Shown: one piece after another, positions 15,701-63,016 of the stretch | Numbering within the stretch: position 1 is the first letter of the stretch | Layout of the letters: each line of letters begins with the position of its first letter | Origin: Leisingera aquaemixtae | GTDB lineage: Bacteria > Pseudomonadota > Alphaproteobacteria > Rhodobacterales > Rhodobacteraceae | Assembly (NCBI RefSeq): GCF_001458395.1 | Contig: NZ_CYSR01000011.1 | Span: forward strand, 124,001 to 188,000 | Direction of reading: 5' to 3' | Length of the DNA stretch: 64,000 nt | Notes under the pieces: generated by a model | The model's input: only the letters and a program-made list of their open reading frames with translations | Told to the model about the DNA's origin: nothing | Database searches by the model: none | Program-made: the position numbers and the translations under genes

Positions 15701-15725
15701 GTCCGGCCGCCATTTCTGCTCGCCC

Positions 15726-15806
15726 GCCCGGCCGCAAGGCCGGGCCGCGCCCGACCCTCCCCACGGGAGGGCGCGTTGCGCCCCCCCAGGCTCGGGCGCG
15801 GCCCTT
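15726..15806 (+). repeat. Palindromic repeat family A, copy 1
   Basis: A first hairpin (CCCGGCC-GCAA-GGCCGGG) is followed by GCGCCCG, a CTCCCC-ACGG-GAGGG inner hairpin and a closing CGGGCGCGGCCCT. The layout matches the copies at 18085, 21588, 44994 and 62897. It lies within the ABC operon between the two permease genes, so it should be transcribed and could modulate mRNA stability. Confidence 0.7.
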
Positions 15807-18084: not shown

Positions 18085-18176
18085 CACCGCCTGGCCGCAG
18101 GCCGGGCAGCGCCCGTCCCGCCCCCCACGGGGCGGGCGCTTCGCTTCCCACCCCGCCGGGACGGGCGCCGCCCTTC
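18085..18176 (+). repeat. Palindromic repeat family A, copy 2
   Basis: The modules run in order: CTGGCCG/aggccGGGC hairpin, AGCGCCCGTCCCGCCCCCC, a short ACGGGG loop, GGGCGCTTCGCTTCC, and the closing GGGACGGGCGCCGCCCTT. It lies between the convergent acuC-like and binding-protein genes, where it can act as a bidirectional terminator. It is almost identical to the 62897 copy apart from the latter's longer central loop. Confidence 0.8.
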
Positions 18177-18193: not shown

Positions 18194-19672
18194 CTACTCC
18201 GCCCAGCTGACCGCCGTCAGGTCGATGGCTGCCGTGGGCGCATTCTCCCACAGGCCCTGCAGCCCGGCCTTGGCCACCCCCAGCTTGGCCAGCTGGAACA
18301 GGTAGCCATTGACGTAATCCGCCGCGATCATCTCCTGCGCGTCCTGCAGCAGCGCGGTGCGGCTGTCCGGGCCGGTGGTCGCGGTCAGCCGGTTCATCAG
18401 CTCCTGAAGCGCCTTGCTGTCGTACTGGAAATAATACTCGGGCCGGGCATAGATGCCGATGTCCATCGGCTCGGTATGGCTGACGATGGTCAGGCCAAAG
18501 CTCTTGCCGTTGAACACGCTTTCCAGCCATTGCGCCCATTCGACGTTGATGATCTCGGCCTTGATGCCGACAGCGGCCAGCTGCGCCGCGATGATCTCGC
18601 CGCCGCGCCGCGCATAAGACGGCGGCGGCAGGTGCAGGGTGGTCTCAAACCCCTCCGGGAACCCGGCCTCCGCCAGCAGCGCCTTGGCCTGCTCCGGGTC
18701 ATGGGCGGACATGCCGGTCAGGTCCTTGTAGGCCGGGTGGTGCGGCGCAAAGTGCGTGCCGATCGGGGTGCCGTAGCCGAACATCGCGCCGTCGATGATC
18801 GCCTGCCGGTCGATGGCATGAGCAACCGCCTGGCGCACCCGGATATCGTCAAACGGCGGCAGCTTGTTGTTGATGGACAGAATCGTCTCGCCCTCGGTCG
18901 AGCCGACCAGCACCTGAAACCGCGGGTCGGCCTCGAACTGCGGCAGGTTCTCCGGCGCCGGGAAGTTGTCGAAGGCGTCGATATCCTCCGCCATCATCGC
19001 AGCGAAGGCGGCAGTCGGGTCGGAGATGAACTTGAAGGTGGCCGAGGCCAGCGCCGGCTGCTCGCCCCAGTAATCCGGGTTGCGCGCCAGCGTGATGCGG
19101 TCGCCTTGCACCCACTCCTGGAAGGTATAGGCGCCGGTGCCGACCGGATTGCTCTTGATGCCCTCAATGCTCTCCGGCGCCACGATCACCGCGTCGCCCC
19201 AGGCAAGGTTGAACAGCAGGCTGCCGTTCGGTGCCGCCAGGGTGATCCGCACGGTCTGCGGGTCCACCGCCTCGACCGAGGCGATCCCGTCAAACAGCGC
19301 CTTCTGCGCATTGGTGCTGTCCTCGGCGCGGGCGCGGTCGAGCGAGAATTTCACGTCCTCCGCATCCATTGCGCTGCCATCGTGAAAGGTGACGCCTTGG
19401 CGCAGCTTGAAGGTGTAGACGGTGCCGTCTTCTGAAATTTCCCAGCTCTCGGCGAGGCCGGGAACCACCGACCCATCGCCCATGAAACGGGTCAGCCCCT
19501 CGAAAATATTGGTGTAGACAACCGAGTCGATGGCCTGCGCGGCGGCGCTGGTCGGGTCCAGATGCGGCGGCTCCAGCTGCATGGCGATGGTGACGCTGTC
19601 CTTGGCCCAGGCGCCGCCGGCGGCCAGGGCCAGTGCGGAACCTGCCGCAAAAACAAATGATTTCAGTGCCAT
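18194..19672 (-). CDS. ABC transporter substrate-binding protein, family 5 (dipeptide type)
   Basis: The 492-residue protein is an exported binding protein of the SBP_bac_5 family that delivers peptides, or other small ligands such as opines and amines, to DppBCDF-type importers. It has a signal peptide (residues 1-21, AAGGAWA). Motifs include LDPTSAAAQAIDSVVYTNIFEGL and YTFKLRQGVTFHDGSAMDAEDV. The ATG at 19672 is supported by GGGGAG seven bases upstream. It is separated from its likely permease and ATPase genes by the opposite-strand acuC-like gene. Confidence 0.93.
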   Translation of the reverse strand: MALKSFVFAAGSALALAAGGAWAKDSVTIAMQLEPPHLDPTSAAAQAIDSVVYTNIFEGLTRFMGDGSVVPGLAESWEISEDGTVYTFKLRQGVTFHDGSAMDAEDVKFSLDRARAEDSTNAQKALFDGIASVEAVDPQTVRITLAAPNGSLLFNLAWGDAVIVAPESIEGIKSNPVGTGAYTFQEWVQGDRITLARNPDYWGEQPALASATFKFISDPTAAFAAMMAEDIDAFDNFPAPENLPQFEADPRFQVLVGSTEGETILSINNKLPPFDDIRVRQAVAHAIDRQAIIDGAMFGYGTPIGTHFAPHHPAYKDLTGMSAHDPEQAKALLAEAGFPEGFETTLHLPPPSYARRGGEIIAAQLAAVGIKAEIINVEWAQWLESVFNGKSFGLTIVSHTEPMDIGIYARPEYYFQYDSKALQELMNRLTATTGPDSRTALLQDAQEMIAADYVNGYLFQLAKLGVAKAGLQGLWENAPTAAIDLTAVSWAE

Positions 19673-19836
19673 TGAAGAACTCCCCGTGTACAATCTGCGG
19701 GCCGTGTGCGGCGCCTATTGGAAACGAGTTTCCCTGTTTCCCATGCGTAATCAAGGGCGGGGGACATTTCGCCCACTGGAAGCACGCGGCGTAAATTGAT
19801 AACCCGTGCCCACTTTTAAACCGCGGACAGGAAGCC

Positions 19837-21587: not shown

Positions 21588-21668
21588 AGGGCGGCGCCTG
21601 ACCCTGGGCGGGTGCGAAGCGCCCTCCCGCGGGGAGGATCGGGCGCCGCCCGGCGGTGCCGCCGGGCG
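21588..21668 (-). repeat. Palindromic repeat family A, copy 3 (inverted)
   Basis: Read on the minus strand, this copy has the 20-bp palindrome GCCCGGCGG-ca-CCGCCGGGC (21648-21667), then GGCGCCCG, CTCCCC-GCGG-GAGGGCGCTTCGC and a closing GGCGCCGCCC. It lies 37 bp after panC and may terminate the panBC message. The first palindrome alone recurs at 33661-33680. Confidence 0.7.
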
Positions 21669-21777
21669 AAGGTGCCGATGTTTCCGGAAGTTCCTCAACT
21701 AAATTCTTAGTAGGGGCTGGCAGCGGTAACACGTTTGCGTTTATGCTCTCCGGTCAGAGGAGACTGGAGGGCAGCAG

Positions 21778-39373: not shown

Positions 39374-39522
39374 CCCTGCAAACTCCGGCAATGCATCAAG
39401 ACAAACAACGCGCGGCAAATTCCCGCACAGGCGGCCGCAGGGCTGCCCCTCATGTGTTACGCGGAGGAATCTTGCTATGACGTTAAGCCCGTGCCAGCCT
39501 GTCCCCAGTATTGGAGGGTGCC

Positions 39523-42500
39523 ATGCCGCGTCTGTTAGCTTCTGCCTTATTTTACTTTATTGCTTTTATTACGGTTTTACCTTCGGCTTGGGCCGGACCG
39601 GAGGTGCCCGATTACCGTTACCGCTCTTATGCGGACACGGATTTCTTCGGCTCCGACCTGCAGCCTCTGTACGGCACCGACGTGCAGTCCTGCGCCCGCG
39701 CCTGCTCCGCGCAGGCGGATTGCGCAGGCTTTGTTTTCAACCAGCGCGCCAATGCCTGTTTCCCCAAATCGCAGCTGACGCAGTCCAGCCCCTACGCAGG
39801 CGCCCTCTCCGCCGTGAAACAGCCCGCCGCCCCGGGTCTGGCCGCAGCGGCCGCGGCGCGTGCGGCGCGGCTGGATTTCCTGCCCGCGCAGGAGCTGCAG
39901 GACGCCGCCGCCTTGGCGCGCACCCTGGGGCTGGACTATCCGCTGGCCGCAAATGCCCCGGCAGAGGCCCGCGCCGCCGCCCGCAGCCTGTTGCGGGACG
40001 GTGATTCCCCGGCTGCCCTGCGCTGGATGGCGCAAGCGGTGGTGCTGGGCGACGCGGCCGCGGACTGGACGCAGTTTTCCGCGTATCTGCTGCGCGCGGC
40101 CAAGTACAGCAGCAGCCGCAGCCAGCAGAACCGTTACCGCGCGCAGGCCTATCATGCCGCGCTGAACGGCTATCTGCGGGCCGCGGACCCGGCCGCGCAG
40201 GCCGAGGCGCTGGCGGCAGCAGCCGAGGCGCAGCAGCTGCAGGGCAGGGGCCGTGCCATGCTGCCGCTGTTGCGGCTGGCGCAGGACATCGCGCCGGATG
40301 AGGCCCGCGCCGCCCGGCTGGAGGATGCGATTGCCAAACACGGCTTCCGCGTGCTGGCCAGCACCGTCGAAAGCGACAGCGCCGCGCCGCGCATCTGCGC
40401 CGAATTCTCGGAGGATCTGGAACAGGCCGGAACCGATTACGAAAACTACGTCCGCATGGCCGAGGCCGGCCTGGCCGTCACCGTGCAGGGCCGCCAGCTG
40501 TGCCTCGACGGGGCGGAGCACGGCAAGCGCTACCGCCTGACCCTGCGCCGCGGCCTGCCCGCCGCCAGCGGCGAGCAGCTGTATAAGGACGTGGAGCTGA
40601 CCCACTACGTGCGCGACCGCGCCCCGCAGGTCCGCTTCCCGGGCCGCGCCTATGTGCTGCCCGCGGGCGGCGCGGCGGCGCTGCCGGTGGAAACCGTGAA
40701 CCTGACGGATCTGGACCTGCGCCTGCGCCGGGTCAGCAGCCGCAACGTGCTGCGCACCCTGCAGGAGGGCTATTTCGCCAAGCCGCTCTCGCAGTGGGAG
40801 GACAAGAACTTCGCGTCTGAAATTGCCGAGGAAATCTGGACCGGCAGCGCCGAGGTGGACACCGCGCTCAATCAGGCGATGACCAGCCGCCTGCCGCTGG
40901 AAGATGCGCTGACAGGGCAGAAGAAACCGGGCCTTTATGCCCTCACCGCCCGGGTGCCAGGGGCCGATCCTTATGAAGACGCCGGTGCCACCCAGTGGTT
41001 CGTGCTGACTTCCCTGGGCCTCTCCACCATGTCCGGCAGCGACGGCCTGCATGTGCAGGTGCAGGGCCTGGCGGACGCCAAGCCGCACGCCGGCGCCGAG
41101 GTCAGCCTGATCTCCTCAGCCAACGAGGTTCTGGCGACAGCAGCCAGCGACGCCAGCGGCTATGTGCATTTCGCCCCCGGCCTCAACCGCGGCACCGGCG
41201 GCGCGGCACCCGCGTTGATCACCGCGCGGGCGGGGGAGGGCGACTTCACCTTCCTGCCCCTGAACGATGCCGCCTTTGACCTTTCTGACCGCGGTGTGGC
41301 CGGCCGCCCCGCACCGGGGCCGGTGGATGTCTTCCTCGCCACCACCCGCGGCGCCTTCCGCGCAGGCGAAACCGTGCATGTGACCGCGCTGGCCCGCGAC
41401 AGCCAGGCGAAAGCCATCGACGGCCTGCCGCTGACTGCGATTCTCCTGCGCCCCGACGGGGTGGAATACACCCGCCAGACCTCCGCCGCAGGCCATCAGG
41501 GCGGCCATGTCTTTGCGCTTGCCACCGGCCCCGCCGCCCCGCGCGGCACCTGGCGGGTCGAGATCAAAAGCGACCTCAAGGCCCCCGCGCTCGCCAGCCG
41601 CCAGATCCTGGTTGAGGATTTTCTGCCGGAGCGCATCGACTTTGAACAGCAGGTAACGAATGCAGAAAGCCTCCAGCCCGGCGGTACAGCTCAGATCGCG
41701 CTGCAAGCCGACTACCTGTTCGGCGCGCCGGGCGCGGGCCTGAAGGTGGAGGGCAGCGTCCGCCTCACCGCCGCCAATACTCTGGAACAATGGCCGGGTT
41801 TTCGTTTTGGCCGCTATGATGAGGCGTCCTCGCCCCAGACCGAACACTTCGGCGGCCAGGAAACCGGCCCTGACGGTGCCGCGGCCTTCACCGTCAGCCT
41901 GCCAGCCGTCCCCCCGGCAGAAGGCAAGCCGCTGCTCGCCACCTTCACCACCCGCGTCGCGGATGGGTCCGCCCGGCCCGTGGAGCGCTCCCTGGACCTG
42001 CCCGTCCGCCCCGCGGGTCCGGTCCTCGGCATCAAGCCGCAATTTGAAGAGGCCGCGGCAGAAGGTTCTGAAGCAGGCTTTGAACTGATCGCCCTGTCGC
42101 CGGACCTGACGCCTATGCCGATGCGCGTCAAATGGACCCTGAACCGGGTCGAGACGCGCTATCAGTGGTACCAGCTCTACGGCAACTGGAACTGGGAGCC
42201 GGTGACCCGCCGCACCCGCATCGCCACCGGCGAGGCGCAGCTGGGCAGCGATCCCCTGCCATTGTCGCAGCCGGTCGACTGGGGCCGCTATGAACTGGTG
42301 GTGGAGCGCCTCGACGGCGAATATGCCTCCGCCGCCTTTGACTTCTATGCCGGCTGGTACGCGCCCGAGGGCAACACCGAGACACCCGCCCGTCTGGACC
42401 TGTCGCTGGACAGCGAAAGCTACACCCCCGGCAGCACCGCCCGCCTGCGCATCGTGCCGCAGGCCGCGGGCACCGCGCTGGTCTCGGTGGTCTCCAGCCA

Positions 42501-44973
42501 TCTGATCCACCGCATGGCGGTTGAGGTCCCTGCCGGCGAAACCGTGATCCCGCTGGAAGTCACGCAGGACTGGGGCAGCGGCGCCTATGTGACCGCCACG
42601 GTGATCCAGCCAGTGGCAGGCGACCGCGGCCGTACCCCGCTGCGCGCCCTGGGCCTCGCCCACGCCAGCGTCACCCAGCCCGGCCAGCAATTGCAGGTCG
42701 CGATTGACGTCCCCGAAGTGGCCCGCCCGCGCGGCACGCAAGTGGCCAAAATCCGTGTGGATGGCGCGGCGGAGGGCGAGGAGGTCTGGCTGACCGCCGC
42801 CGCCGTCGACCTCGGCATCCTCAATCTGACAGGGTTCCAAAGCCCCGATCCCAGCGCGCATTACTTCGGTCAGCGCCGTCTGGGGATGGAGCTGCGCGAC
42901 GTCTATGGCCGCCTGATCGACCCCGGCAATGGCGCCATGGGCCGCATCCGCTCCGGCGGCGATGCGGACGGCGGCATGAAGATGCAATCGCCGCCCCCTA
43001 CCCAGGATCTGGTGGCGCTGTTCTCCGGCCCGCTGCAGGTGGACGCCAATGGCGAGGCTGACTTTCCCCTGACGCTGCCCGCCTTCAACGGCACCGTGCG
43101 GCTGATGGCGGTGGCCTGGTCGGGCAAGGCCGTGGGCCAGGCCGAGGCCGACATGCTGGTGCGCGACCCGGTGGTGGTCACCGCCGCCCTGCCGCGCTTC
43201 CTGGCGCCGGGCGATCAAAGCCGCGCCCGCATCGAAATCGTCCACGCCGACGGCCCGGCAGGTGAGATGAAGCTGACAGCCAGCACCGCAGGCGGCCTGA
43301 CGCTCGGCAGCCTGCCGGCCTCCGTCACTCTGGCGGAGCAGGGCAAGACCGTGCTGGACCTGCCGGTCACGGCAGAAACCATCGGCGACCATGCGCTGAC
43401 CCTCACCCTCACCACACCCGACGGGCAGCAGCTGCGGCAGGACCTGCGGATGCCGGTCCGCGCCAATGATCCGGTGACGTCGGAAACCCGCCGCTTCACT
43501 CTCGCAGCAGGCGACACGTTCCTGTTCAGCAAGGACGTCTTCACCGGCCTGCGCCCCGGCACTGCGCGGGCCACCATCTCCTCCGGCCCGCTTGCCAAGT
43601 TCGACGTGCCGGGCCTTTTGGCGGAGCTGGACCAGTACCCCTACGGCTGCACCGAGCAGGTGACCTCCAAGGCGCTGCCGCTCCTCTACCTCAGCAGCGT
43701 CGCGCAGGCAGCTGGGCTGGGTAACGGCCCGGCGGTGGACGCGCGCATTAACGCCGCCATCCGCCAGGTGCTGACCCGCCAGGCCCCCAGCGGCGCCTTC
43801 GGGATGTGGCGCGCCGACAGCGGCGAATTCTGGCTGGATGCCTACGCCAGCGACTTCCTCAGCCGCGCCCGCGCGCAAGGGTATGAGGTGCCGCAGCAAG
43901 CCTTCGCCCAGGCGATGGATAACCTGCGCAACCGCATCAGCTACGCCGCCGATTTCGACACGGGCGGCGAGGAGATCGCCTATGCCCTCCTGGTGCTGGC
44001 GCGTGAAGGTGCGGCCCAGATGGGCGACCTGCGCTACTATGCGGATGTGAAGGGCGACGCCTTTGCCACCCCGCTCGCCGCCGCCCAGCTGGGCGCCGCG
44101 CTCGCGGCCTATGGCGACCAGCGCCGCGCGGACCGGATGTTTGCCCGCGCCGCCCGGATGACCGGTTCCGAGGCGCAGGGCGAAGCCCGCCTCTGGCGCG
44201 CCGACTTCGGCACCGCCTTGCGCGACACCGCAGGCGTTCTGGCGCTGGCGGCAGAGGCCGGATCGGACGCGGTGGACCGGACCCGCCTGTCGGCGCGGAT
44301 CTCGAACGCCAGCGGCCAACGCTCCACGCAAGAGGCGGCCTGGACCCTGATGGCCGCCCGCGCGCTGGCGCAGACCCCCGAGGCCTCTGGCCTGCTGGTC
44401 AACGGCCAGCCGGTTCAGGGCCCGTTTGTGCAGGCCGCAGACGGTCAGGACATGCCGGAACTTGCCCTGACCGCCGCCAATGGCCGCACGGCTGAGATCA
44501 CGCTCACCACCCTTGGCGTGCCGGAGGTCCCGCCTGCCGCGGGCGGCTTCGGCTACACCATCGAGCGCAGCTACTACACGCTGGAGGGCCAGCCGCTGGA
44601 CGCGCAGTCCGTGCAGACAGGCGCGCGGTTCGTGGCGGTTCTGCGGGTGATGCCGCATGAAGAGACCGGCGCCCGGCTGATGATCAACGACCCGCTGCCC
44701 GCGGGATTTGAGATCGACAACCCCAACCTGCTGCGCTCCGGCGATTTGCGCGATCTCGACTGGCTGAACCCGGCAGAGGCCGAACACGCTGAGTTCCGCA
44801 GCGACCGCTTCCTGGCGGCGGTGAATGCGCGCGATGCCGCGCCGGTGACGCTGGCCTATGTGGTCCGCGCGGTGACGCCCGGCACGTTCCACCACCCCGC
44901 CGCCTCGGTCGAGGACATGTACCGCCCCGCCTACCGCGCCCGCACCGGCACGGGGCGCGTGGAGGTCAGGTGA
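39523..44973 (+). CDS. Bacterial alpha-2-macroglobulin with PAN domain
   Basis: This 1816-residue exported protein is thought to trap proteases in the periplasm. The signal peptide is residues 1-26 (PSAWA). A PAN/apple-like domain follows (about 30-90) with cysteine pairs [19 protein letters not shown] domains and the alpha-2-macroglobulin core come next. The thioester motif is YPYGCTEQ with Cys at about residue 1376, so the covalent trap is intact. The toroid domain carries the thioester, and the receptor-like C-terminal domain is last. No lipobox is present. GGAGGG lies six bases before the ATG. pbpC overlaps its stop by 4 bp, the usual partner arrangement. Confidence 0.95.
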
Positions 44974-47144
44974 CACGCTGGCTGAACAGCTCAGAGGGCA
45001 GCGCCCGTCCGCGGGGGGGCGAGAATCGCCCGCCGTCGTGCTGCAAGCACGCCTCTGGCGTGACGGGGGCGGACGGGCGATGCCCGGCCTATCGGCCAGG
45101 CAGGAGGTGGAGGCGGAGCGCTTTGGCCTTGGCGCTGCTGGTTGCGGTGACGTTCTCTGCGTATCGCAGCTTCGACACTTGGATCGGCAACACAAACCTC
45201 CCCCTCACCCTCACTGAAACCTCGACCGAGGTCCTCGACCGCAACGGCAAGCTCTTGCGCGCCTACCCCGTCGGCACCGGCCTCTGGCGCCTCGCCGTGC
45301 AGCCCGCCGGCGTCGACCCGCGCTTTATCGCCATGCTTCTGCGCTACGAGGACAAGCGCTTCCGCTCCCACGCGGGCGTCGACCCCATCGCCCTCCTGCG
45401 CGCCGCAGGGCAGGCGCTGTGGAACGGCAGGACAGTCTCTGGCGGCTCCACCCTCACCATGCAGGTCGCGCGCCTCTTGGAGGACGGCACCACTGGCCGC
45501 TGGTCCGGCAAGCTGCGCCAGATGCGGGTGGCGCTGGCGCTGGAACGCCGCCTCAGCAAGGACGAAATCCTCACCCTCTACCTGACCCACGCCCCCTATG
45601 GCGGCGCGGCAGAGGGGATCCGCGCGGCGACCTACAGCTGGTTCGGCAAGGAGCCGAAACGCCTCACCCCGGCGGAGGCCGCTTTGCTGGTTGCCCTGCC
45701 GCAATCCCCCGAACGCCGCCGCCCCGACCGCTTCCCCGAGGCCGCCAGCGCTGCCCGCGACCGGGTCTTGGCGCGGATGCAGCGCGAGGGCCTCCTGAGC
45801 GGCGAACAGGCCGAGGCCGCCCGCCGCACCCCGCTTCCGCACCGCATGGCCGCCTTCCCGCGCCTTGCCCCGCACCTTGCCGACCGCATGGCGGCACAGC
45901 ACCCCGGCCAGCGCCAGCTGCGCCTGACCGTCGACGGCGCGGTGCAAGCGCGGATGGAGACGCTGCTGGCAGAGGCCGTGCGCACGGGCGGGAACCGGCT
46001 CTCCGCCGCCCTTATCGCCGCCGACCACCAGACCGGCGAGGTGCTGGCGCTGGCCGGCTCCCCGGGCTATTCGGATGCGCAACGGCGCGGCTTTGTCGAC
46101 ATGACCCAGGCCATCCGTTCCCCCGGCTCGACCCTGAAGCCGCTGATCTACGGCCTCGCCTTCGACCAGGGCCTGGCGCACCCGGAAACCCTGATCCACG
46201 ACGGGCCTGTGAATTTCGCAGGCTACGCGCCGCAGAATTTCGACGGCGAATTCCGCGGCGACATCCGCCTGCGCGAGGCGCTGCAGCTGTCTCTCAACAT
46301 CCCCGTGGTGAAGCTGACGCAGGAACTGGGACCGGCGCGGGTGCTGGCCTCGCTGAGGGCAAGCGGCGCCAGCCCGGAACTGCCCGGCGGCGCGCCGGGC
46401 CTGGCCCTGTCGCTCGGCGGCCTCGGCATCAGCCTGCAGGATATGGTGCAGCTCTATGCCGGGCTGGCCGCAGGCGGGCAGGGGCCGCGCCTGCGCGTGA
46501 TGCAGGGCGACGCCCCCCAGCCTGCAGGCCGCCTGGTCTCGCCCGAGGCCGCCTGGCAGGTTGCCGACATCCTGCGCGGCCTGCCGGTTCCTGCCGGCGC
46601 GCGCGCAGGCAGCATCGCCTATAAGACCGGCACGTCTTACGGCCACCGCGACGCCTGGGCGATCGGCTGGGACGGGCGCCACGCGGTCGGCGTCTGGATG
46701 GGCCGGGCCGACGGCACCCCGGTGCCGGGCATCTTCGGCGGCGATCTGGCCGCCCCGGTGCTGTTCGAGGCCTTCGGCAGGCTGAAACCCGCGCTCGACC
46801 CGCCGCCGCCGCCGCCGCCCGCCACGCTGATCGTCAGCTCCGCCGAGCTGCCCCAGCCGCTGCAGCGCTTCCGCCCCCGCGACGCGGCCTTCTCTGAACC
46901 GGCAGACGCGCCGGAACTGATCTTCCCGCCCGACGGCGCCCGGCTGGCGCTGGAGGGCGCGGAGCTCACGCTCAAACTCCGCGGCGGCACTGTGCCCTTC
47001 CTGGTGCTGGCAAACGGCCAGCCGGTGCTGTCCGGCCAGCGCCGCCGCGAGTTCTCCCTGCCCAGCCCCGGCCCCGGCTTTTCATCCCTGGTGATTGTCG
47101 ATGGCGCGGGGCGCTCCGACCGGGTTAACCTGCGGATCGACTGA
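44970..47144 (+). CDS. pbpC: Penicillin-binding protein 1C PbpC
   Basis: PbpC is a bifunctional glycosyltransferase/transpeptidase-type PBP that rebuilds peptidoglycan alongside bacterial alpha-2-macroglobulin. The 724-residue protein has an N-terminal membrane anchor (about 51-67). The GT51 domain carries YEDKRFRSHAGVDP and GGSTLTMQVARLL. The transpeptidase has S387 in SPGSTLKP, SLN in the SxN role and KTGTSYG. A C-terminal BiPBP domain is present. The GTG start overlaps the A2M stop (GTGA). Residues about 9-45 are encoded by an in-frame family A repeat. A second possible start, TTG at 45123, lies just after the repeat with GGAGGTGGAGG upstream. Confidence 0.93.
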   Translation: MTRWLNSSEGSARPRGGENRPPSCCKHASGVTGADGRCPAYRPGRRWRRSALALALLVAVTFSAYRSFDTWIGNTNLPLTLTETSTEVLDRNGKLLRAYPVGTGLWRLAVQPAGVDPRFIAMLLRYEDKRFRSHAGVDPIALLRAAGQALWNGRTVSGGSTLTMQVARLLEDGTTGRWSGKLRQMRVALALERRLSKDEILTLYLTHAPYGGAAEGIRAATYSWFGKEPKRLTPAEAALLVALPQSPERRRPDRFPEAASAARDRVLARMQREGLLSGEQAEAARRTPLPHRMAAFPRLAPHLADRMAAQHPGQRQLRLTVDGAVQARMETLLAEAVRTGGNRLSAALIAADHQTGEVLALAGSPGYSDAQRRGFVDMTQAIRSPGSTLKPLIYGLAFDQGLAHPETLIHDGPVNFAGYAPQNFDGEFRGDIRLREALQLSLNIPVVKLTQELGPARVLASLRASGASPELPGGAPGLALSLGGLGISLQDMVQLYAGLAAGGQGPRLRVMQGDAPQPAGRLVSPEAAWQVADILRGLPVPAGARAGSIAYKTGTSYGHRDAWAIGWDGRHAVGVWMGRADGTPVPGIFGGDLAAPVLFEAFGRLKPALDPPPPPPPATLIVSSAELPQPLQRFRPRDAAFSEPADAPELIFPPDGARLALEGAELTLKLRGGTVPFLVLANGQPVLSGQRRREFSLPSPGPGFSSLVIVDGAGRSDRVNLRID
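44994..45102 (-). repeat. Palindromic repeat family A, copy 4, inside pbpC
   Basis: Read on the minus strand it matches the 62897 copy almost throughout: the CCTGGCCGATAGGCCGGGC hairpin, CGCCCGTCCGCC, the same long central part (GTCACGCCAGAGGCGTGCTT, then GCACGACGG) and the closing GGACGGGCGCTGCCCT. It lies wholly inside the pbpC reading frame, adds about 37 codons without a stop, and is missing the TTCGCTTCC module. Confidence 0.85.
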
Positions 47145-62896: not shown

Positions 62897-63016
62897 CACC
62901 GCCTGGCCGATAGGCCGGGCAGCGCCCGTCCCGCCCCCCGTCATGCCGGAGGCGCGCTTCCAGCACGACGCGGGCGCTTCGCTTCCACCCCGCCGGGACG
63001 GGCGCTGCCCTCAGAG
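62897..63016 (+). repeat. Palindromic repeat family A, copy 5
   Basis: CACCGCCTGGCCGATAGGCC, then GGGCAGCGCCCGTCCCGCCCCCC and a longer central loop (CATGCCGGAGGCGCGCTTCC around AGCACGACG). GGGCGCTTCGCTTCC and the closing GGGACGGGCGCTGCCCT follow. It is the reverse-oriented twin of the element inside pbpC at 44994. It lies between the ABC ATPase gene and the DUF1203 gene. Confidence 0.85.

Follow-up and report, generated by a model that had tools for sequence, protein, structure and literature searches.

The pbpC gene of Leisingera aquaemixtae carries, inside its reading frame, a palindromic element with relatives elsewhere in the same genome. In our judgment it is very likely that the element belongs to a family of palindromes that is mobile, or was so recently, and that the member in pbpC has been tolerated in frame, translated, and exchanged in place. 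The family, the position of its pbpC member, the reading frame in the 21 Leisingera genomes, the lack of a match in the pbpC loci examined from other genera, the presence or absence of copies at individual sites, and the relation of element subtype to the gene tree are all evident directly in the nucleotide sequences compared here.

The palindromic element of pbpC and its family

The product of pbpC has the Pfam domains Transgly, Transpeptidase, and BiPBP_C (the PbpC C-terminal domain). The gene lies downstream of a bacterial alpha-2-macroglobulin gene, whose open reading frame spans 39511-44973 and whose Pfam bMG and A2M domains cover 39577-44973. The two genes are coupled by a GTGA at 44970, in which the pbpC start overlaps the alpha-2-macroglobulin stop (ORF end, 44973). 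Covariance model R1, which supplies the scores given below, was built from 21 copies of the element in the L. aquaemixtae genome, the pbpC copy at 44995-45103 itself being one of the 21. The features of the locus within the window (the whole 64,000-nt stretch of DNA analyzed) are as follows.

39577..44973 (start uncertain), + strand: bacterial alpha-2-macroglobulin gene upstream of pbpC, with Pfam bMG and A2M domains
44961..44965, + strand: GGAGG, possibly the ribosome-binding site of the GTG start at 44970, proposed from the sequence
44970..47144, + strand: pbpC (penicillin-binding protein 1C) ORF, GTG start, 724 codons
44995..45103, + strand: in-frame palindromic element in pbpC, long form, 109 nt (R1, 67.5 bits, E 3.1e-10)
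44996..45010, + strand: left arm of the main palindrome (folding; covariation)
45035..45061, + strand: 27-nt central insert, found in long forms only and in 3/21 pbpC copies (alignment)
45071..45085, + strand: right arm of the main palindrome (folding; covariation)
45086..45097, + strand: small terminal hairpin, GGCC-TATC-GGCC (folding; covariation alignment)

Folding of the pbpC palindrome was better than that of 200 shuffles on both strands (z -3.88 and -3.98; 0/200 as good). The earlier note had placed a palindromic repeat in the pbpC frame at 44994-45102, one base off the core delimited by R1, and had given its reverse-oriented twin as 62897-63016, which R1 places at 62899-63011 on the minus strand. 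Its estimate of about 37 added residues agrees with our measurement, 109 nt being equivalent to 36-37 codons; the palindrome encodes residues 9-45.

The family has a core of ~82 nt in which arms of 15 nt, GGGCAGCGCCCGnCC and its complement, are accompanied by two hairpins, one inner and one terminal (GGCC). In the pbpC copies of 3 of the 21 species, column pair 99/104 of the terminal hairpin is G-C instead of C-G. Long forms have ~27-30 nt extra in the middle of the element. In the pbpC copy, this central insert is flanked by CGTC (45034-45037) and GACG (45062-45065), and the resulting 32-nt centre (45034-45065) has an inward-reading CGTC at each end and two short hairpins, with stems of ~5 bp by eye versus the 8-9 bp published for CGTC REPs (PMC3733652). 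On these grounds the insert and its flanks look like a nested head-to-head dimer of CGTC-type REPs. An arm-less unit related to the central insert is located at G000:C21:468616-468647. The dimer-like centre, and the disagreement between subtype and gene tree discussed below, are points beyond the earlier note.

A blastn search of the L. aquaemixtae genome with positions 44985-45115 as query recovered related pieces elsewhere in the genome, 64 in all at E<=10 and 31 at E<0.01 (query counted). R1 gave 52 matches at E<=0.01 which, after subtraction of three antisense readings, correspond to at least 49 places, a lower bound with 150 of 8757 first-look candidates scored. The model was then applied to 81 genomes with stricter filters and at most 48 candidates scored per genome, for which reason these counts are also lower bounds. 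Matches were found in at least 37/81 genomes, comprising 21/21 Leisingera (at least 11-41 matches each at E<=0.001, in genomes of 3.9-5.5 Mb) and at least 16/28 genomes of other genera in the same family; none of the 32 genomes from other families (0/32) had a match. A search for plasmid records found two, both of Leisingera. Rfam 15 had no match in the window at gathering score, and when seven loci were searched permissively, the Rfam matches overlapping element copies all stayed below threshold (CC0196, 18.6 bits versus 35).

When the 21 L. aquaemixtae copies were read in all six frames, 104/126 frames (0.83) were open, compared to 0.74-0.80 for shuffled copies and 0.67 for random 82-mers from the window. 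Two antisense frames were open in all 21 copies, and two other frames were open less often than in shuffles. Since the frames are only somewhat more open than those of shuffles, the translatability of the element seems to come largely from its GC-rich composition; frame openness was unconvincing as evidence of design. For the intergenic copies, element length modulo 3 (23, 8, and 4 of the 35 non-gene copies in the three classes) was set aside as a control, the ends of R1 matches wobbling by one base.

Copies between genes and within other genes

Besides the pbpC element, the window contains four intergenic copies, and every one of them differs in presence between Leisingera species.

15724..15805, - strand: intergenic copy (R1, 65.8 bits)
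18087..18174, - strand: intergenic copy just 3' of the minus-strand ORF 18194-19714 (R1, 54 bits)
21588..21669, + strand: intergenic copy (R1, 73.4 bits)
62899..63011, - strand: intergenic twin of the pbpC element, long form (R1, 61.8 bits)

The twin is 85% identical to the pbpC element by blastn. Its left flank could be located in 18 congener regions, of which 2 gave an R1 match at E<=0.01 at this site, and some congeners hold related sequence below the R1 threshold. At site 21588, one of 18 congener regions had an R1 match, 15 had an identical, shorter junction, and two were ambiguous, while at site 18087 an R1 match at E<=0.01 was found in 9/17 regions. In three regions (L111, L114, and L116) the flanks of site 18087 are ~1.17 kb apart, and something larger has been inserted there. 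Site 15724 has the same empty junction in 15/17 congener regions and an oppositely oriented element in 2/17 (L112 and L120). In the latter two, the element is at the same stop/start overlap as in the window, with TCAT on both sides; its opposite orientation would be due either to two insertions at one site or to an inversion. The TCAT at 15724, which is also the stop/start overlap, was the one exception to the lack of a clear target-site duplication at the sites inspected.

A RAYT transposase was considered as the mover of the family. PF01797 (Y1_Tnp, RAYT) was found in 6/21 Leisingera genomes, and R1 detected no element in four RAYT loci (L061-L064, of 16 places listed). No PF01797 match was obtained in the L. 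aquaemixtae genome, and RAYT was rejected as the mover for this reason.

Frames running through the element were checked at 48 of the 49 L. aquaemixtae places (the copy at 18087, which lies beyond the end of an ORF, was left out) and five were read closely. Four more in-gene copies are in frame, in xdhC (TIGR02964), pabB (NF005698), a DUF2064/TIGR04282 glycosyltransferase-like gene that scores just below the NCBIfam cut-off, and a TIGR02219-family gene (NlpC/P60). Including pbpC, at least 5/49 places are within genes. The earlier note had called the repeat mobile-looking and had suggested a genome search for further in-frame copies; the search was productive, and the appearance of mobility is borne out by the intergenic copies with empty sites in congeners and by these four genes.

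Orthologues of the four genes were taken from 21 genomes each. The xdhC insert occurs in 2/21 (L. aquaemixtae and G004), and the other 19 genes are exactly 114 nt shorter. R1 matched the TIGR04282 gene in 2/21 genomes, the NlpC/P60 gene in 12/21, and pabB in 15/21 (one of them truncated at the end of a contig); some other pabB genes have a shortened stretch. All scorable spans (83/83, four of them the L. aquaemixtae rows; 1/84 was not scorable) differ from the L. aquaemixtae span by multiples of 3. Since any conserved gene would be expected to vary in this way, the count indicates that frame is kept without indicating the cause. Six of the 20 NlpC/P60 orthologues from other genomes have one or two stop codons within the match and none in the stretch around the insert; judging from these stops, some NlpC/P60 genes may be damaged. 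Species differ in the frame in which they read the element at the NlpC/P60 site, which means that what is conserved there is not the peptide as such. At another place (L072; G000:C21:383404-383484), the element adjoins the 3' end of a gene named by eye as cytochrome c oxidase subunit II-like, and the first A of the element completes the TGA stop of that gene.

The pbpC site across Leisingera

The element is at the same place in pbpC in 21/21 Leisingera genomes (L. aquaemixtae and 20 others), its arm starting in every case 26 nt downstream of the first base of the coupled GTG. R1 matched all 21 elements (E 1.1e-13 to 9.4e-4) in five length classes of 58, 64-65, 82, 88, and 109 nt. The distance from the GTG to the FDxWI motif is 50, 52, 58, 60, or 67 residues, and when the R1 match is subtracted from this length, 91-92 nt are left in all 21; the length variation of the PbpC N-terminus thus resides in the element. 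The frame through the element is open in 21/21 genomes, every length class is in frame, and the GTGA start/stop overlap is kept in 21/21. The inserted residues vary widely between species, and the 27-nt central insert is missing from 18/21 copies.

Outside the genus, R1 gave nothing at E<=1 in nine pbpC loci (L052-L060) drawn from the pbpC-like matches in 30 genomes. Of 79 named pbpC loci, 71 were examined at E<=0.1; 58 had no match (among them L270, which is without its upstream part), and the other 13, which matched, all belong to Leisingera congeners (13/20). Many of these pbpC loci from outside Leisingera encode a short basic N-terminus directly ahead of the anchor. The presence of the element at the pbpC site in all 21 Leisingera genomes indicates that it entered pbpC before the genus arose, although the time of insertion is uncertain because of possible remnants in sister lineages. 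Three loci of these lineages (L247, L250, and L300) encode longer PbpC N-termini with stretches, such as SPSYRSLKKWKRW in L250, that recall the right end of the translated element; from such likeness, these N-termini might be decayed remnants of the element. The expectation in the earlier note that some close relatives would lack residues ~9-45 was not realized in the genus, where a version of the element is present in every pbpC. Its proposed alignment of pbpC stands in part, given that pbpC of other genera gave no match and that the residues vary, and fails in that there is no Leisingera pbpC without the element. The description of the element as a cytosolic N-terminal extension comparable with Rickettsia palindromic elements is supported.

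We surveyed ATG, GTG, and TTG codons in the 21 pbpC genes. Seven species (L032, L033, L041, L043, L045, L046, and L047) have none in frame downstream of the element as far as FDxWI, and hence none before the membrane anchor ends. Four of the seven carry an in-frame GTG within the element, and in L043, L046, and L047 there is none up to FDxWI besides the coupled GTG. These absences make it very probable that the element is translated as part of the protein. Were translation to begin after it, for example at TTG 45123, which the earlier note had put forward as a second start, the element would be only a 5' leader. A GGAGG-like run and the TTG are indeed present in the L. aquaemixtae gene, the remaining 14/21 species have at least one in-frame ATG, GTG, or TTG after the element, and many N-terminal REPs in other bacteria may be untranslated according to PMC3733652. 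However, the TTG has no conserved counterpart, the seven species above lack any such codon, the frame and the GTGA are kept throughout the genus, and a start at 45123 would lose basic residues ahead of the anchor. Use of the TTG as a start is therefore unsupported, and a start after the element is to our minds very improbable. A different role for the element would be that of an mRNA hairpin, co-opted to tune the translational coupling of alpha-2-macroglobulin and pbpC and kept by selection. Its constant position 26 nt from the start in all 21 genomes fits such a role, as does the covariation of the arms, in which 94.3% of cells are paired, 9/29 pairs are changed on both sides, and 0/500 shuffles were as high on any of five measures; moreover, pabB is without an R1 match in 6/21 genomes, and more variation is seen at the window's four intergenic sites than at pbpC. 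Nonetheless, intergenic copies of the family exist, as do copies midway along unrelated genes, and the pbpC element varies almost two-fold in length. Covariation, for its part, is no proof of RNA function, since it is equally expected if one family member supplants another or if the template is switched between the arms; template switching at quasipalindromes is a known process. We consider the mRNA hairpin a rather unlikely explanation, while noting that retention in 21/21 pbpC genes as against loss elsewhere could reflect function rather than mere tolerance. Likewise doubtful, though conceivable, is the combined reading in which the pbpC site is a slot where interchangeable peptide-coding palindromes of the family succeed one another in frame and the hairpin is in addition selected to set the level of PbpC relative to the coupled alpha-2-macroglobulin.

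The 21 pbpC elements were sorted by eye, on arm sequence and length, into type A (n=10, three of them long), type B (n=5), and type C (n=6, in three lengths), making six groups in all. When these groups were mapped onto a tree built from the remainder of pbpC, 12 changes were required, where the minimum is 5 and shuffled groups gave a mean of 12.6 (84/200 as low); the tree itself has full support on just 7/20 inner branches. As subtype does not follow the pbpC tree, the element appears to have been replaced in place by other subtypes. An alternative is that ordinary homologous recombination swapped the N-terminal region between Leisingera species without exchange of the element itself. Interspecies recombination does occur in bacteria, and identity of the right flank is somewhat higher within subtypes than between them (0.59 versus 0.49), a weak difference measured without gap alignment. 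Identity of the 23-nt left flank, which touches the element, is however unlinked to subtype (0.68 within and 0.68 between), and L044 and L045 have both flank types in common and different element subtypes. Recombination of whole N-terminal regions is for us the most credible of the alternatives, albeit an unlikely one; recombination within the arms is possible and forms part of the explanation that we prefer. That the element is simply a conserved linker of the ordinary kind, or a GC-rich palindrome due to chance, might be suggested by the GC-rich genome, in which open frames are common, as the random 82-mers showed. This idea is refuted by the dispersed copies (at least 49 places in the genome and model matches in at least 37/81 genomes), the covariation, and the empty sites, and we give it practically no weight.

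Under the preferred explanation, exchange of a tolerated palindrome in place, a member of the family would have entered pbpC before the radiation of Leisingera, in the cytosolic stretch between the coupled GTG and the membrane anchor, with an inserted length that kept the pbpC frame. The element would be translated as an Arg/Gly/Pro-rich tail, and the insertion would have been tolerated because the sequence of this stretch is of little importance. Only frame-keeping changes would pass selection. Time and again, therefore, one subtype would have taken the place of another, or the element would have lost length on the spot, in steps that are always multiples of three; recombination at the arms, or a switch of template there, is the probable route. 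Comparable events would have occurred in xdhC, pabB, the TIGR04282 glycosyltransferase-like gene, and the NlpC/P60 gene. What we infer in this account is that the element is translated in the cell, how it moves and is exchanged, and that it is neutral for PbpC.

Comparison with known palindromic repeats

Rickettsia supplies the best-known coding palindromes, for which the weak selection acting on small intracellular genomes is a natural explanation. Across the 21 Leisingera genomes, sites are found empty, filled, shortened, changed in subtype, and read in different frames, and the gain by proteins of peptides from mobile DNA thereby becomes testable both by comparison and in the laboratory. 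A caution also follows for annotation, as N-terminal extensions annotated in this bacterial group can be repeat DNA.

Like the Leisingera family, Rickettsia palindromic elements (RPEs) are dispersed palindromes that occur between genes and in frame in unrelated conserved genes, as described in PMC2229807 and PMC3733652. Elements of this general kind are palindromes dispersed both between and inside genes, and so is the Leisingera family; moreover, conserved genes whose counterparts in relatives are free of the element stay in frame across its copies, with the reservation that six NlpC/P60 orthologues have stops. The likeness is one of description. In contrast to RPEs, the host here is a marine genus of the Rhodobacteraceae, and subtype changes at one coding site are documented across that genus.

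A second group for comparison consists of the CGTC- and GTAG-tagged REPs, small palindromes that, like the Leisingera element, are located mainly between genes or near 3' ends and in some cases within genes (PMC3733652). According to that source, CGTC REPs are found mostly in alphaproteobacteria, mostly as head-to-head dimers and with no dedicated transposase; intragenic REP dimers encode 20-30 residues and clusters 43-82; and RPE-4 and RPE-6 are equated with CGTC repeats. The main text of PMC3733652 does not mention Ruegeria, Roseobacter, or Rhodobacter. Compared to CGTC REPs, the Leisingera core is larger, with both a terminal and an inner hairpin and no terminal CGTC tag, and likeness to a CGTC dimer is confined to the 32-nt centre of long forms. 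Classification of the core as a CGTC-tagged REP (20-40 bp, with an unpaired CGTC at the end) was rejected on its ~82-nt length, its 15-nt arms, and the missing terminal CGTC. Classification as a GTAG REP with its RAYT was likewise rejected, on the lack of PF01797 in the L. aquaemixtae genome and of R1 matches in the four RAYT loci.

The Correia/NEMIS, ERIC/RU-1, RU-2, and RU-3 elements are similar in being stem-loop sequences of ~100-200 bp with open frames that can be fused in frame to genes (PMC2229807). Target-site duplications are listed in PMC2229807 for several of them, whereas the Leisingera element has none that is clear apart from the single TCAT. Among the papers listed by literature searches, titles and the openings of abstracts revealed no description of this element. 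In-frame palindromes in Rickettsia and other organisms, and intragenic REPs in many bacteria, are already known from the accounts in PMC2229807 and PMC3733652; new here are the element itself, the group of bacteria that hosts it, and the finding that its subtype at a given site and its reading frame change across one genus.
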